From Bacteroidota bacterium (GTDB lineage: Bacteria > Bacteroidota > Ignavibacteria > Kryptoniales > JAKASW01): a stretch of 64,000 nt of DNA. The translations under genes were made by a program, and so were the position numbers. The DNA lies in contig JAMCQL010000060.1 in the NCBI GenBank assembly GCA_023381615.1, positions 1 through 64,000 on the forward strand, read 5' to 3'. The notes under the pieces were generated by a model, which was not told the DNA's origin, ran no database searches, and worked only from the letters and a program-made list of their open reading frames with translations. Shown here piece after piece: positions 7,406 to 24,270 of the stretch; position 1 is the stretch's first letter; the number at the start of each line of letters is the position of its first letter.

Positions 7406-8245
7406 ATGTTTAAATGGATTTCTGAATTTTTTAGTCTGGCGAAAAACTATATCGTTTTCGCGCTGCTTCTCTCGTTGTCTCTCTTCATGATCTCGACCAA
7501 CAACAACGTTCACACTCGCGGTTTGCAGGTTATCGGTTTAGTTACCACTTCTTATCTTGAAGCAGGCGTGAACGACGTTCTGAGTTATTTCTCTTTGGCT
7601 TCAAAGAACAAAGAGCTTCAGGAAGAAAATGCGCATCTCATAGACATGACTGCGAGAATTCGCCGCGCTCTAATCGAGAACCAACAGCTTAGATCGATGC
7701 TCGCGCTGAAAAGCCAAAGCACAACGGTGCTTATCCCTGCGAACGTTATCGGTCGCACATCCGAGGGGGGGAAGTATTTCGTCACGCTCGATGCGGGCTC
7801 GAATGATGGTGTGCACATCAGTGACCCTGTAATTACCGGAAGCGGCTTGGTCGGAATTGTAATCGCTGTGAGCAGCGACTTTTCACTGGTTAGAACTCTG
7901 TTAGACAGCGACAGCAGGATCGCCGCGCGATTAGTCAATGCGTCTGCGGACGGACTGATTGTTGCGGGCGGATTCGGTGAACTCGCTATGAAAAATGTCT
8001 CACGAAGATACTCGGTCAAGACTGGGGACATCGTTGAAACGTCTACATTGAGCAGCCTCGTCCCGCCGGGAATAGTAATCGGCGTGGTTTCTAAAGCGAC
8101 AGAAGAGACAGGTGATATTTTTAAACACATTGAAGTCCAACCCGCGGTTGATTTCACTTCTATCTCCGCGGCGTTCGTCATGCAATACAGCCGTCCGGCT
8201 GAAGCTGTCAAGCTCGAAACAAAGAACCTTCCGAAGCACAAATGA
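7406..8245 (+). CDS. mreC: Rod shape-determining protein MreC
   Basis: N-terminal TM, coiled coil, VTLDAGSNDGVHISDPVITGSGLVG core; position after mreB. Confidence 0.93.
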   Translation: MFKWISEFFSLAKNYIVFALLLSLSLFMISTNNNVHTRGLQVIGLVTTSYLEAGVNDVLSYFSLASKNKELQEENAHLIDMTARIRRALIENQQLRSMLALKSQSTTVLIPANVIGRTSEGGKYFVTLDAGSNDGVHISDPVITGSGLVGIVIAVSSDFSLVRTLLDSDSRIAARLVNASADGLIVAGGFGELAMKNVSRRYSVKTGDIVETSTLSSLVPPGIVIGVVSKATEETGDIFKHIEVQPAVDFTSISAAFVMQYSRPAEAVKLETKNLPKHK

Positions 8246-8730
8246 CAAAGCGGCTGATCGGTTACGTCGTCCTTGGCGTCGCTGCTATTTTGGTCCAAAA
8301 ATTCTTGGACGACTTCGCTTCGATAAATTTGGTTTCGCCTCAGGTCGTAATTCTGTTCGTAATTTTCCTTGCGCTTCGCGAAGGGCAGCTCTTTGGAATG
8401 GGCGGAGGGTTTGTCGTCGGTTTATTGCACGATTTGCTGACGACACATTTTCTCGGTTACACCTCTTTCGTGGGAGTGATAGCGGGATTTATTGCCGGAT
8501 TCTTCTACAAGGAAAGCGACGCAGAACTGGCGGGAAAAACATTTAATTTTGCCTGGATCTCCGCGATTACACTCTTCTTCTCTGAACTTCTTGCACTACC
8601 AATAATCGCCGCCGGCGAATTGAATTATTTCTACGTTTTCTTGAAATTCACTCTTGGAACGACTGTCTATACTTCGGTATTTGCTATGATAATTGTTTTC
8701 GTAAACGGGAAGAAAAGCCGCTATGTTTGA
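8242..8730 (+). CDS. mreD: Rod shape-determining protein MreD
   Basis: Small multi-TM protein in the canonical mreBCD position. Confidence 0.85.
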   Translation: MTKRLIGYVVLGVAAILVQKFLDDFASINLVSPQVVILFVIFLALREGQLFGMGGGFVVGLLHDLLTTHFLGYTSFVGVIAGFIAGFFYKESDAELAGKTFNFAWISAITLFFSELLALPIIAAGELNYFYVFLKFTLGTTVYTSVFAMIIVFVNGKKSRYV

Positions 8731-18414: not shown

Positions 18415-18558
18415 TTGTCACCTCATTCAAGGATTTAGTGATAAAATTTTAAAAATTTAGTGCCACAAGCGAAGAACTTCAAGGGGAAGAGAAAGTAAAT
18501 GACGCGAGTGAGACTGAAATAACAAGGCAACTCGAGAGTATAGGTTCGTGAGCTGAGG

Positions 18559-18585
18559 TGACCGTCACTTCAAAAGTGACGGTCA
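18559..18585. terminator. Perfect 12-bp stem hairpin (possible terminator)
   Basis: TGACCGTCACTT-CAA-AAGTGACGGTCA followed on + by TTTCTT; lies between the S8/T9SS locus and etfB. Confidence 0.5.
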
Positions 18586-18675
18586 TTTCTTGAATCTCAA
18601 ATAGCGGCTATGCGTTTCTTAGTTTACCACAACCCCCGCGAGAGAGCGGCGGCATTTTCCGATCAAGCGGCAAGA

Positions 18676-20995
18676 TCACTTCATCAGGATCATTCTCTTT
18701 ACCTGCACGAAGCTGCCGGCAGACAACTTGTAAATATAAACGCCACTTGAGACATTCCTCGCGTTCCATGTTACCGAATGATAACCGGCATCCATTTCTT
18801 CGTCGGCAAGTCTTGCGACCTCTCTGCCAAGCATGTCATAGACAGCGAGTTTCACATGAGATGGCTTGGATAAGCTGAATCGTATTTGAGTGGAAGGATT
18901 AAATGGGTTGGGATAATTCTGTTCAATTGTGACGCATATCCGCCCGGCAATTACACAGCTCACTTTGGAGGAACCTCCGCAGCTTGCCCGCAAGTGTCCG
19001 GTGCAGCAGCACTGATGCTGACCATAAACCCCAATCTGGCACCCTCACAGGTAAAAACCATAGTACAAAACACCGCTGGTTACATCTGCACGTAGATCAA
19101 GATAGCCGTCAGAACTATGCATTGTGGTAGAATAGGAATTAGTGGTACTCAACGGTCCGATCCATTGTCCACCAGTCGAATTAGCTCTTAGGAACCATGC
19201 ATAGGTGTAGCTGTCTGTGCTCCCTGTTGCCGACACCGTCCATGTCCCCTGCTGATTGATCGCAAGCTCTCTAGGTCCGGAAATTGGAGCCATCAACGGT
19301 CTTGCGATATACACAGCCGTTCCAGCGTTCAATCGGCCGTAACCAAAATCGGTGTCGTAACCGGACGCGCCCATGTCAGCAGCAGTGTTTTGTACTATGG
19401 TTTTTACCTGTGAGGGTGCCAGATTGGGGTTTATGGTCAGCATCAGTGCTGCTGCACCGGACACTTGCGGGCAAGCTGCGGAGGTTCCTCCAAAGTGAGC
19501 TGTGTAATTGCCGGGCGGATATGCGTCACCTCCCGGAGCACCCCATGTGTAATGGGTGTAGTACGTCGGTGCTCCCGTTCCGTAATTACCGTCGTTCCAG
19601 CCCGGTTGTCCGCCAATGTCTGTTGACCAGACGTCTCCCCTGAGCTGAACACTTCCATCTGGTTGTAAATAACCAAGATCACCACTTGGCGTGACTACCG
19701 ATAATTGCGTCCCTGTCCCCCGAGGACTGTAGTATTGAATGTTGTTCGATTTGTCTGTCGCGCCCACTGCTATAACTCCCGGAACCGTGGCTGGAAAAGT
19801 TACGAAGCCATAATTTCCGTTGTTACGATTGGCACTGTTGCTTGCAGCAAAAACGACGACTGAGCCTCTGCCTCCCCTGCCTTGAGTTAGTGCCCGATTG
19901 ATCGCAGCGGCAATGTTATCATACCATATTCCCTGGGGATAGATTCCCCAACTATTGCTCAGAACGTCGGCTCCATGTTGCCAAGCAAAATCAATGGCGT
20001 TAGTAAAGCCATTATTTGTGGTCCCCTGTCCGTAGCTGTTAAATACTCGCAAGAACATTATTCTGCAGTTTGGGGCTACGCCCGATATTCCTGTGCTATT
20101 ATTCTGAGTCGCGCCGACTACACCTGCACATGCCATTCCATGGGCTTCATTCCCACCTGCGCTTGGATCCGAGTCGATATCGTAATAATCGTAACCGGCA
20201 ACAATCCTACTGGAAGGAATATCTTCCTGAGCCATCCCACCTTCATCGATGACTGCAATGGTTATTGACGATGACCCTGTTGTGATGTCCCATGCGGGCG
20301 TCACATTGATGTCTGCGCCATTTACTCCACCAGTCTGACCTGTGTTACGAAGATAATACTGGTTTGAGAAATAGGTGTCGTTCGGGATGCTCAAGAGACG
20401 AACATCAGTTAGGAAATCAGGAAGGGAATACACTACACGAGGATATTCGTGGTACAGATTTGCCATGTCGAGCACCGACAAGTCTGATGAATGTGTGACT
20501 CTCAAAGTATTAGAGATTCGGTGAAGCCGTGCTGGTGTCAACGACCTCGACATGGTGCACTGCATTCAAAGAACCGATTTCAGTCCAGTCAACCAGCGGC
20601 GAAAACTGAACAACAAATCGATCACTTATCTGGACTTTCGTTTGTCCGCCCACGAGAAAGACGGGGTTGACTATGTCAACTTCTGTTTTTGTCTTAAGTC
20701 GGGCAACAAGTTGCTTAATATCTGTTTTTGGCTTCAATTTGTAATTGAAGAAACCCCCGCATGCCGCAGGGCCGAGCGGAGAGGGTTCTTGAAGTGACGA
20801 TTCCGCCGACATCAGGGACTGTATCTCTGAAGAGGTTACGCCGGGCTTGAACTTGAGCGTTATTTCCTGGTCTGATGGAGTTAGGGCAATTTTCTCGCCG
20901 TGTGAGTAGTAGAAGTAATTCTGTGCGTAAACCGCCGATGAAGAAGATATAACAGCCAAGAAAAGAAAAGCCAAAAAAAAGATGCACTTTTTCAT
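18676..20995 (-). pseudogene. Subtilisin-like (S8) secreted protease with T9SS C-terminal sorting domain, disrupted by a frameshift and an internal inverted duplication
   Basis: 20510-20995 (-): signal peptide and propeptide-like part. 19045-20565 (-), shifted frame: AVIDEGG (Asp), EAHGMACAGVVG (His), HFGGTSAACPQVSGAAALML (Ser). 18676-18993 (-): VTIEQNYPNPFNPSTQIRFSL...GVYIYKLSAGSFVQVKRMILMK sorting domain. Confidence 0.85.
18929..19529. repeat. 150-bp inverted repeat pair (18929-19078 and 19380-19529), 149/150 matching by eye, 301-bp loop
   Basis: Plus strand GTGACGCATATCCGCCCGGCAATTACACAGCTC...CATAGTACAAAACACCGCTG is the reverse complement of 19380-19529, with one mismatch at 19074/19384. 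Confidence 0.93.
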
Positions 20996-21059
20996 GATTT
21001 CTCCTTTTCAATTAATTGTGTAACCGGCCAAATAATATTACTCTAACCGAAAATGAAAA

Positions 21060-21140
21060 TGGCGCCACCTGAAACAGGCGGACCGTCTTGTAAAAACCTG
21101 GCCGGGTTTTCAAGGAGTGTCTGATTGCCCAAGGGCGCCA
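21060..21140 (-). promoter_or_regulatory. Structured intergenic element upstream of the S8 protease gene (unassigned)
   Basis: Minus-strand TGGCGCC...GGCGCCA closing ends enclose CTTGAAAACC/GGTTTTTACAAG and CCGCCTG-TTT-CAGGTGG stems. Confidence 0.35.
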
Positions 21141-21215
21141 GTTCTGTATCATGGCGGCGAATGGTTATGTAAAAATGATACTATCATGTTTGGCTACTTG
21201 CTCAGACTTCTCACC

Positions 21216-22301
21216 TCACCTTAGACCTAAGGCAAGAGACTGTATCCTGACGTTACGCGGTTCGAATTTTATCACGTCAACCGCACTGTTAGCAGCAAGA
21301 TCAATTACAAAGATGTCTAAAAAATTGCCGCTAACATACGCTTTTCCACCATCGGCACTAATAACTATTCTGTCAGTCATAGTATTAGCTTGCCCGCTAG
21401 CATTGTTAACATCTATGAAGCCAATGGGGGAATTTGTGCTTGTTTGGAAGATTCTTATCTTTCCGCTTGGCACGGGCTCCAGTAAGAAAGGTTTTCCTGG
21501 ATCTGTCAGATATAAATATTGGCCGTTCATGCCTAATGCGAGCGAGCCGAGAGTGCTTTCATTGTATGCCGGTATCTCTCCAACAATTGAATCACGAGCA
21601 ACGTCGATAACGGGACCATTTGCGAAGTAAATATATTTGCCGTCCTGAGAGATCACCATATTGATGAGCGGAAAGCCAACGGAGTTATAGTACCGAATAA
21701 TCTTCTTGCTCTGGTAGTCATAAGCAAAAAGATGACTTCGGTTTGTCCATGAATAGAAAATCTTTCTCACCGGATCAAAAACCAATGACTCATAGTTGTG
21801 TCCAGTATCCAGAATGTTTAAGGTATCAAAGAATGAGATCGCATCAGTTACCGTGTCAATTGTTCCTACTTGTCGCACAGTATCATAAGGCGTGGATGCG
21901 ATGATGATTGGAGTCCCATTCGGTTCGAGGTAGATATCTGCTGCCTTTGCTAGAATTTGTTTCTTGGATTTTGTAACGGGGTCCACAGAATACACAGCGC
22001 CTGGCCAATTAACAGGTCCTTGCCTTGTGGTAACGTAGAGTTTCTTACCACTCTTCGTAGCCGTTACATCCCATACCGATCCAAACCCATGAAGTGTATC
22101 GACAACACTGTCGTCATCTGTATCGATTACGTAGACTTGATCATATCCGCAATTGCCCGCGTATAGATAGTAGGATTGTGTCGGCTGGATTATTGGCCCA
22201 GTTCCATTGTCCTTGCAGCTTGCCAAAAGGAGACTCAATACCCCGAAGAGGCATGACATTCCCCTAAAGGATTTCGTTGCGTCGAAGAGAGAGGTCTTCA
22301 T
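21216..22301 (-). CDS. YncE/YVTN-like beta-propeller lipoprotein
   Basis: Lipobox-like LLLASCKDNGTGP; repeated blades (VYVIDTDDDSVVDTL..., YFANGPVIDVARDSIVGEI..., ISADGGKAYVSGNFLDIFVIDLAANSAVDVI). Confidence 0.75.
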   Translation of the reverse strand: MKTSLFDATKSFRGMSCLFGVLSLLLASCKDNGTGPIIQPTQSYYLYAGNCGYDQVYVIDTDDDSVVDTLHGFGSVWDVTATKSGKKLYVTTRQGPVNWPGAVYSVDPVTKSKKQILAKAADIYLEPNGTPIIIASTPYDTVRQVGTIDTVTDAISFFDTLNILDTGHNYESLVFDPVRKIFYSWTNRSHLFAYDYQSKKIIRYYNSVGFPLINMVISQDGKYIYFANGPVIDVARDSIVGEIPAYNESTLGSLALGMNGQYLYLTDPGKPFLLEPVPSGKIRIFQTSTNSPIGFIDVNNASGQANTMTDRIVISADGGKAYVSGNFLDIFVIDLAANSAVDVIKFEPRNVRIQSLALGLR

Positions 22302-22774
22302 TTCTTTCCCCTTTCTTTCAATCCTAGCACTTATCGAGAGGCACTGACATCTCCATATGTCTTCAAGCTCAACTCCGTCCCTCGGGTTTACCGTGTTTGA
22401 GGATCAGATTTGCATTATCTGGAAATCAATTCCTGCTGGGAAAAGCGATGTGCATAAGCCGCGGCTCGATGCTTATAGAGTTCCATCGTGGCCGGCAAGA
22501 AGCATTAATACCCATTCATCAGTCTCGCTTGAGAGGCGCAATATTTCTCTGATGAAAGACTAACGTTGGTCATTCTAACCTGCACTAGGCACGCCCGCAT
22601 TCCTGCAAACAGTAAAGACGCTCCCATCTTTCTCCTTGTAGTCCCTCGATTCTAGTCTTCGAGGCGACGAGCTAGTTACAGACACCGTGAGAGCTATTGA
22701 AAAAGCCACCTTATGCCCTTGGCACCTGACGAGAGGAATATAAAACGGGGATGCAGTCTTGTCAAGTCATCGAG

Positions 22775-23034
22775 TCACTTCATCAGGATCATTCTCTTTA
22801 CCTGCACGAAGCTGCCGGCAGACAACTTGTAGATGTACACTCCGCTTGCCATACCGTTCGCGCTCCACGTAACACCATGGTAACCAGCGGGCATTTGTTC
22901 ATCTGCGAGCCTCGCTACTTCTCTGCCGAGCATGTCGTAGATAAGGAGTTTAACATAAGCTGGCCTGAAGAGTTTGAAGCGGATCTCGGTTGTTGGGTTG
23001 AATGGGTTGGGATAATTCTGTTCAATTGTGACGC
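22775..23034 (-). pseudogene. Orphan T9SS C-terminal sorting domain (gene remnant)
   Basis: Minus strand reads VTIEQNYPNPFNPTTEIRFKLFRPAYVKLLIYDMLGREVARLADEQMPAGYHGVTWSANGMASGVYIYKLSAGSFVQVKRMILMK*; no protein body upstream. Confidence 0.8.
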
Positions 23035-23040
23035 GGTAAT

Positions 23041-23152
23041 GTAATGCCTCACTTATGGTTTCTCGCCAAGCCGCAAAGCGAACCGCTCGTCAACATTTCT
23101 TTGCGTTCTTGGCGCCTTTGCGAGAGAAATAACCCCGTCAGTAAGGCATTAC
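23041..23152. repeat. MITE-like imperfect palindrome with GTAATGCCT/AGGCATTAC ends and CGCAAAG-type core
   Basis: GTAATGCCT (23041-23049) and AGGCATTAC (23144-23152) inverted ends; further imperfect pairing (TTTCTCGCCAAG / CTTTGCGAGAGAAAT). Confidence 0.5.
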
Positions 23153-23211
23153 TTTGACTTTTCTCCTGATTTATTGCTTAAAAACATATCTTTAGGTATA
23201 TTTTTTATACA

Positions 23212-24270
23212 ATGTCTGAGGACGATGGACATAGTGCTTACGAACTATTCGAGAAGAGACTTAAAAAGTCCCTGAGGGTTGATACTCGCCATTCAGTTCT
23301 AGATTTCAAACCCGTCAAGAACTATCTCTATATTTTTACCGATTCAATTTCAAATGCTGTTCATATTTCGCAGGTTTACGCGAAAGGATCACTGGATTTC
23401 AGGATAAAAGTTGTCCTTCTGCCTGACAAGAGCGTCGGTAAACATGCAAAGGGAATTTGTCATGTCGGCGTTGTGCCTGTCAGAAGGTCGGACAACTCTT
23501 CGAGCGAACAAATCACTCAGGTCTTGTATGGCGAAACTTTCGATACTCTTCAGCTTACCGATAGTTGGGCGAGAATTAAATTGCATGCGGACGGTTACAT
23601 TGGCTGGGTGTCGCTAAATCAGATTACACTTTTTGATAAAAATGTGTTTTTCGAATTTCAATCCCTGCCGAAAGTTTACGTTGTCGAAAAAGTTTTGAAC
23701 CTTTTCGAGAAACCGAACAGAAACTCACCTGCTCTCCGCGAGGCAGTCTACGGGACCGCTCTCAGCGTTGTCGGACGGCGCGGGAATTTCTTGGAGGTTA
23801 AACTTCCCGATGGTTTAATTGCTTATGCTGAAAGATCAGGAGTTAAGAATTCTCCTCCCGTCAAAGACTTCTCGTTGAAAGGATTGTTCAACACAGCACA
23901 AAGTTTTCAGGGAACTTCCTACGTCTGGGGCGGAAGAAGCGCGAAGGGTTTTGATTGCTCCGGATTTGTCCAGACGGTTTTCAGATACAACGGCATCGAA
24001 TTGCCGCGCGATTCGTCTGTTCAGTTTTCGGCGGGCAAGCCTGTCGGAAAGAATTTGAAGAATCTTAAAGCGGGAGATTTATTGTTTTTTTCTTATGATG
24101 GCAAGAAGATTTCTCATGTTGCGCTTTACATGGGGAACAATAAAAAATTCATCCATTCTTCGGGATTTGTCAGAGTCAACAGCTTTGATCCGAAAAGGAG
24201 AGATTTCAACAAAAAACTGTTATCTTCTTTTGTTGGCGCTTGCAGAATAATCGATGAAAGGAAGGTGTAG
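23212..24270 (+). CDS. SH3-domain NlpC/P60 family cell-wall hydrolase
   Basis: SH3-like repeats then SYVWGGRSAKGFDCSGFVQTVFRYNGIELPRDSSVQ and ISHVALYMGNNKKFIHSSG. Confidence 0.88.
   Translation: MSEDDGHSAYELFEKRLKKSLRVDTRHSVLDFKPVKNYLYIFTDSISNAVHISQVYAKGSLDFRIKVVLLPDKSVGKHAKGICHVGVVPVRRSDNSSSEQITQVLYGETFDTLQLTDSWARIKLHADGYIGWVSLNQITLFDKNVFFEFQSLPKVYVVEKVLNLFEKPNRNSPALREAVYGTALSVVGRRGNFLEVKLPDGLIAYAERSGVKNSPPVKDFSLKGLFNTAQSFQGTSYVWGGRSAKGFDCSGFVQTVFRYNGIELPRDSSVQFSAGKPVGKNLKNLKAGDLLFFSYDGKKISHVALYMGNNKKFIHSSGFVRVNSFDPKRRDFNKKLLSSFVGACRIIDERKV

Follow-up and report, generated by a model that had tools for sequence, protein, structure and literature searches.

The S8 protease gene and its inverted repeat

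The window, by which we mean the whole 64-kb stretch of DNA that was analyzed, carries a subtilase gene on the minus strand that runs from position 20995 down to an inverted block (Table 1). The encoded protein reads through DVTSG, enters the block and stops inside it. Peptidase_S8 (PF00082) and a T9SS sorting domain (PF18962) were both found, on separate ORFs, and the genome encodes the T9SS translocon protein SprA (PF14349), which makes a T9SS plausible. The gene also contains a frameshift at about 20508-20513, which separates the pro-region from the S8 domain; the evidence is a 42% identical homologue from another family, which is a single 793-aa ORF and matches the window in two frames. 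This frameshift is independent of the inverted block.

Table 1. Coordinates of the features at the protease locus, numbered along the window
Feature	Position	Strand	Remarks
N-terminal part of the protease (signal peptide, pro-region), other frame	20510..20995	-	Two tblastn pieces, frames 1 and 2
Main S8 protease ORF	19045..20565	-	PF00082; cut by the stop inside the inverted copy
Source arm	19380..19529	-	Catalytic-Ser segment GGTSAACPQVSG... of the S8 protease, native place; PF00082 E=8.5e-43
Loop, 301 bp	19079..19379	-	Last part of the S8 domain, then an Ig-like domain with DVTSG at its end; matches same-genus L017-L019
Inverted copy	18929..19078	+	150 bp, exact core 18929-19073; at the position of the relatives' linker to the T9SS tail
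First junction	19071..19078	-	Native AGC-GGT (S-G of DVTSG) overlaps the block, 1 mismatch
Second junction	18929..18935	-	GCGTCAC common to block end and tail start
T9SS C-terminal sorting tail VTIEQNYPNPFNP...	18676..18935	-	PF18962 Por_Secre_tail E=9.5e-11; phase 0 with the protease frame
Orphan T9SS tail, no gene body	22775..23034	-	GCGTCAC start shared with the protease tail

The source of the block is the stretch of the same gene that encodes the GTSAA catalytic-Ser motif of the PF00082 subtilase. By direct comparison, positions 18929-19073 are the exact reverse complement of 19385-19529, a core of 145 bp, and the full arms reach 150 bp with a sole mismatch (19074 C vs 19384 A) and four further matches past it. 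The near-perfect reverse complementarity of the original prediction is thus confirmed, as is the loop length. Past 19079 the similarity of the arms decays (165 bp at 96%). An inverted-repeat scan found this pair alone, with no second long inverted repeat within the 64-kb window; chance-level inverted repeats in this genome reach at most 18-24 bp, and the protease pair lies far beyond them.

Long perfect arms around a short loop could recombine, and the fold predicted for the arm pair is strong (-255 kcal/mol vs -88 for shuffles). Recombination between the arms of a functional invertible switch would flip the 301-bp loop and provide alternative protease C-termini, and the original prediction had proposed that the pair could drive such an inversion. 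However, the inverted arm contains a stop as written, and the flipped loop gives NTAGYICT followed by a stop, seven codons after the first arm, so that neither orientation yields a full product. Moreover, one arm is the coding catalytic segment, the frameshift lies upstream, and no such arrangement is present at this locus in the congeners of the genus where it could be read. A useful inversion is unsupported, and on the frame analysis of the flipped loop we rejected the switch, which we regard as most improbable.

The replaced linker, its junctions and the locus in relatives

Three genes from the same genus (L017, L018 and L019) share the Ig-like domain and the tail, and in these genes 45-47 residues (135-141 nt) extend from DVTSG G to QNYPNPFNP. 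The window has 150 nt at the linker position, in phase. Judged from these sequences, the inverted block apparently stands in place of the linker of about 135-141 nt between the Ig-like domain and the T9SS tail and is not an insertion. The original prediction described a copy spliced in front of the tail, with the protein resuming exactly at the tail; the stop in the copy holds and the tail is in phase, but the protein does not simply resume there, and the splicing has to be reworded as replacement of the linker seen in the same-genus genes.

Short homology flanks both junctions, CAGC[G/A]GT at the first and GCGTCAC at the second. DVTSG is conserved in L017-L019, and its codons in the window, GAT GTA ACC AGC GGT, lie at 19086-19072. 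The mismatch at 19074 falls in the native GGT codon of this motif, and the copy is therefore effectively 100% identical to its source. On the simplest reading, the mismatched base would be the native base of an imperfect overlap, and the copied part would carry no mutation. The junction homologies are those of the sequence as assembled; the nearest protease homologues are 42-45% identical.

These junctions bear on a possible but tentative account, the main rival to the one that we favor below, namely a recent two-step template switch in vivo, in effect a quasipalindrome-type mutation of very large size. After DVTSG, the nascent strand would stall, pair by fold-back with the end of the catalytic-Ser segment, to which it is weakly complementary, copy about 140 nt of it backwards and return to the normal template at GCGTCAC, which would replace the linker and kill the gene. 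Each junction shows short inverted homology in the orientation required, and weak pairing that extends past the first junction (10/15 positions; empirical chance 0.001) slightly favors a fold-back. Departure and return would occur in the order known from quasipalindrome template switching in E. coli (PMC7202029), and since the gene was already frameshifted, its loss would be tolerated. The joint homology fits chimeric DNA and a real template switch alike.

The same final order of parts, again with short homologies at the joints, would also result from a remodelled inverted duplication of the tandem-inversion-duplication type, in which a subsequent deletion left one inverted fragment before the tail. 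Tandem-inversion-duplications of this type, with short homologies at their joints, are known in Salmonella. This course of events requires more steps than a single template switch would, no other duplicated sequence is left at the locus, and both the near-equal length of the replacement and a second 150-bp block in the same assembly (see below) would go unexplained. We consider it improbable.

A genome scan with EtfB placed the genus among MAGs of Candidatus Kryptoniota/Bacteroidetes, and comparison with congeners placed the locus in a variable interval. The segment 18415-23211 of the window (4.8 kb, from etfB to the conserved gene at 23212) is missing in the congener loci where the interval is readable, and in one congener (G009; L083) two unrelated T9SS-tail genes occupy the same interval; the contig of another (G008) stops too early for the etfB interval to be read. 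These arrangements suggest that genes for secreted proteins are gained and lost at 18415-23211. With the segment missing or different in the readable congeners, these provide no intact protease orthologue at the locus for comparison, and none that is close was found elsewhere among 391 genomes of the class, where the best homologues (the 42-45% identical ones) belong to another family. A query with the protease against named genomes likewise returned no relatives, in a set that may omit this genome's own record. For the same reasons, namely the lack of an orthologue at the locus and the distance of the best homologues, a functional fused protein in relatives was rejected.

The tail itself has a partial counterpart within the window. 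The word GCGTCAC, which the original prediction had correctly placed at both 18929-18935 and 23028-23034, opens the protease tail and the orphan tail, and the identity between the two extends over 34 bp at the 5′ end; they are also identical over 57 bp at the 3′ end, with 67% identity between. The two tails thus have a common 5′ breakpoint at this word. Adjoining the orphan tail, positions 23035-23160 form an imperfect hairpin-like intergenic sequence (CGCAAAGGCGCCAAGAACGCAAAG ... GCGAGAAACC).

A second inverted block and the state of the assembly

The same assembly contains another block of this kind in a NiFe-hydrogenase operon (L143; G000:C4:87540-88677), where 7540-7689 and 8528-8677 form an exact 150-bp inverted pair with a loop of 838. 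The block consists of the N-terminal segment of the small-subunit gene, inverted, and stands between the small and the large subunits, which were assigned by profile (PF14720/PF01058 for the small and PF00374 for the large subunit). Two congeners carry a normal large-subunit start at the position of the block (M-T-K/R-RIVVDP...VRGFEII). The large subunit is 80-82% identical to that of the congeners and the remainder of its gene is pristine (PF00374 E=3.6e-240); its native N-terminus is absent from the bin, paralogues excepted. The words shared at the joints are GGCTTCGAG, located within the conserved GFE, and up to ATCCAGAATAATG, located where the native stop and start lie; by hand count about 131 nt replace about 117 nt between the shared words. 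Extended pairing past the joint, as seen at the protease block, was not found at the hydrogenase block. The hydrogenase annotation at L143 should be treated with care.

Inverted repeats were surveyed in about 1.78 Mb (window included) of the 3.37-Mb genome. Besides the protease block and the hydrogenase block, the survey returned chance matches (24 bp at most), pairs of repeat elements (50-58 bp, loops above 1 kb) and a 125-bp pair that spans a run of Ns. Apart from the two blocks and the 125-bp pair across Ns, these 1.78 Mb held no inverted repeat of at least 25 bp with a loop below 1 kb, and no decayed examples resembling the two blocks were seen in them. In relatives, of which 0.65 Mb was scanned, nothing comparable to either block was found.

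Several properties of the assembly are relevant to the origin of the blocks. An overlap of exactly 127 bp recurs many times among the contig ends and indicates a de Bruijn assembly with K=127; the assembler was presumably SPAdes, to judge from contigs ordered by size and a 10-N gap. Both blocks are longer than this K, and 150 matches a common Illumina read length. The assembly also contains an orientation mistake: at C40:1-890 (L062 1-1015, G000:C40), an 880-bp piece is placed backwards before the 10-N gap. The piece that follows the gap opens with 125 bp whose reverse complement forms the first 125 bp of the misplaced piece, so that the two should overlap in the other orientation. The misoriented piece is the start of a gene resembling a TonB-dependent receptor. 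Separately, positions 1-161 of the window are a repeat that also occurs at the ends of several further contigs from the genome.

Origin of the blocks

After weighing these data, we think it probable that the inverted block is absent from the cell's chromosome as written and represents a library or assembly artefact. The original prediction had put template switching or fold-back replication first and an amplification or assembly chimera second; the junction homology suits both, and what favors the chimera is that the same assembly holds another block, of exactly 150 bp. We propose a putative course for such an artefact. About 120-140 bp of native sequence would have been lost at two places, the protease linker and the start of the NiFe-hydrogenase large subunit, and each would have been filled with 150 bp taken from 0.3-0.8 kb upstream, inserted backwards and joined at either end through short chance homologies. 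Such a substitution could have arisen if fold-back chimeric molecules from library making or amplification prevailed at a poorly covered spot, or if a read-length piece was used in the wrong orientation to close the gap during local assembly or scaffolding. We infer a read length of 150, low coverage at both spots and the step behind the error.

Several findings speak for an artefact. The same structure recurs in unrelated genes of one assembly at a technical length; native sequence is missing at both sites, that is, the hydrogenase N-terminus and the linker of the same-genus tail genes; and the replacement is near-constant in length (150 vs 135-141 nt in the protease and about 131 vs about 117 nt in the hydrogenase). 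Together with the orientation mistake elsewhere in the assembly, two perfect blocks of read-like length, missing native sequence and the absence of shorter, longer or decayed examples from the surveyed sequence favor a technical cause. Published work describes comparable errors. Draft MAGs are known to contain local assembly errors, for example, 13 in a 1.13-Mb genome (PMC7111523). Inverted chimeras joined at short complementarity are the dominant artefact of MDA, where most chimeras are inverted and local, with priming over 2-21 bp (PMC1855051), and library artefact reads with inverted segments have been described as well (PMC10908179).

Other observations speak against an artefact. An assembler with K=127 normally makes no joins over 7-13 bp, and reads that carry the junctions may therefore exist. 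Both blocks have homology at either end, of the kind used in a real template switch, and an independent frameshift is expected of a protease gene that is truly decaying. Moreover, the figure of 150 counts matching flank bases, with an exact core of 145 in the window, and the events number two in a survey of about half of the genome.

The in vivo template switch draws some support from the hydrogenase block, since a similar event there would show recurrence of the process. However, known events are far smaller, with a median copied tract of 12 and a maximum of 128 in great apes (PMC7954356), and spacers were searched up to 70 bp in yeast (PMC8604942), against a tract of 145-150 bp and a spacer of 301 bp here. 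A natural process should also leave many shorter and some decayed examples, of which the survey showed none; two events with one read-like length and zero divergence are unlikely, and the hydrogenase block is without extended pairing. That both 150-bp blocks are real is, in our view, unlikely; fold-back switching in vivo in this Kryptoniota population would then produce tracts of about 150 nt with loops of 300-840 nt, well above known quasipalindrome mutations, and would only recently have knocked out a NiFe hydrogenase as well as a secreted protease. If real, the block would represent an unusually large bacterial template-switch mutation and, with its counterpart, evidence of a recurrent process. 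If it is an artefact, as we favor, it would be a recognizable error signature, one that goes unnoticed while it disrupts genes of a public draft genome (in this case those for a protease and a catalytic hydrogenase subunit) and that could mislead claims on metabolism or secretion.

None of the systems known to us from the literature matches the blocks in full, and the exact artefact pattern, an inverted read-length block that replaces native sequence, was not found in the literature searched. Local assembly errors in MAGs resemble it as short stretches of wrong consensus inside a contig that corrupt a coding gene and are expected in uncurated drafts, but the present one is an inverted read-length copy of nearby sequence, a pattern not among the errors described in the portion of that source on which we rely (PMC7111523). 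In MDA chimeras, nearby segments are joined in inverted orientation, with a deletion between them and priming at 2-21 bp of complementarity, although these have one junction, whereas the sequence here returns to its original orientation after 150 bp (PMC1855051). Chimeric library reads explained by the PDSM model contain a reverse-complemented stretch bounded by short inverted repeats; they are low-frequency reads from human libraries, in contrast to the consensus sequence here (PMC10908179). Among processes in living cells, quasipalindrome template switching in E. coli and yeast generates a perfect inverted repeat through two switches at short inverted homologies (PMC7202029, PMC8604942), but the yeast quasipalindromes have arms of about 7-16 bp and spacers searched up to 70 bp, compared with 150-bp arms and a 301-bp spacer (PMC8604942). 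In Nematomorpha mitochondria, coding palindromes form perfect inverted repeats within protein genes, with arms of up to 142 bp; both of their arms encode conserved regions of functional proteins, whereas the copy in the protease gene destroys the frame (PMC6649704).
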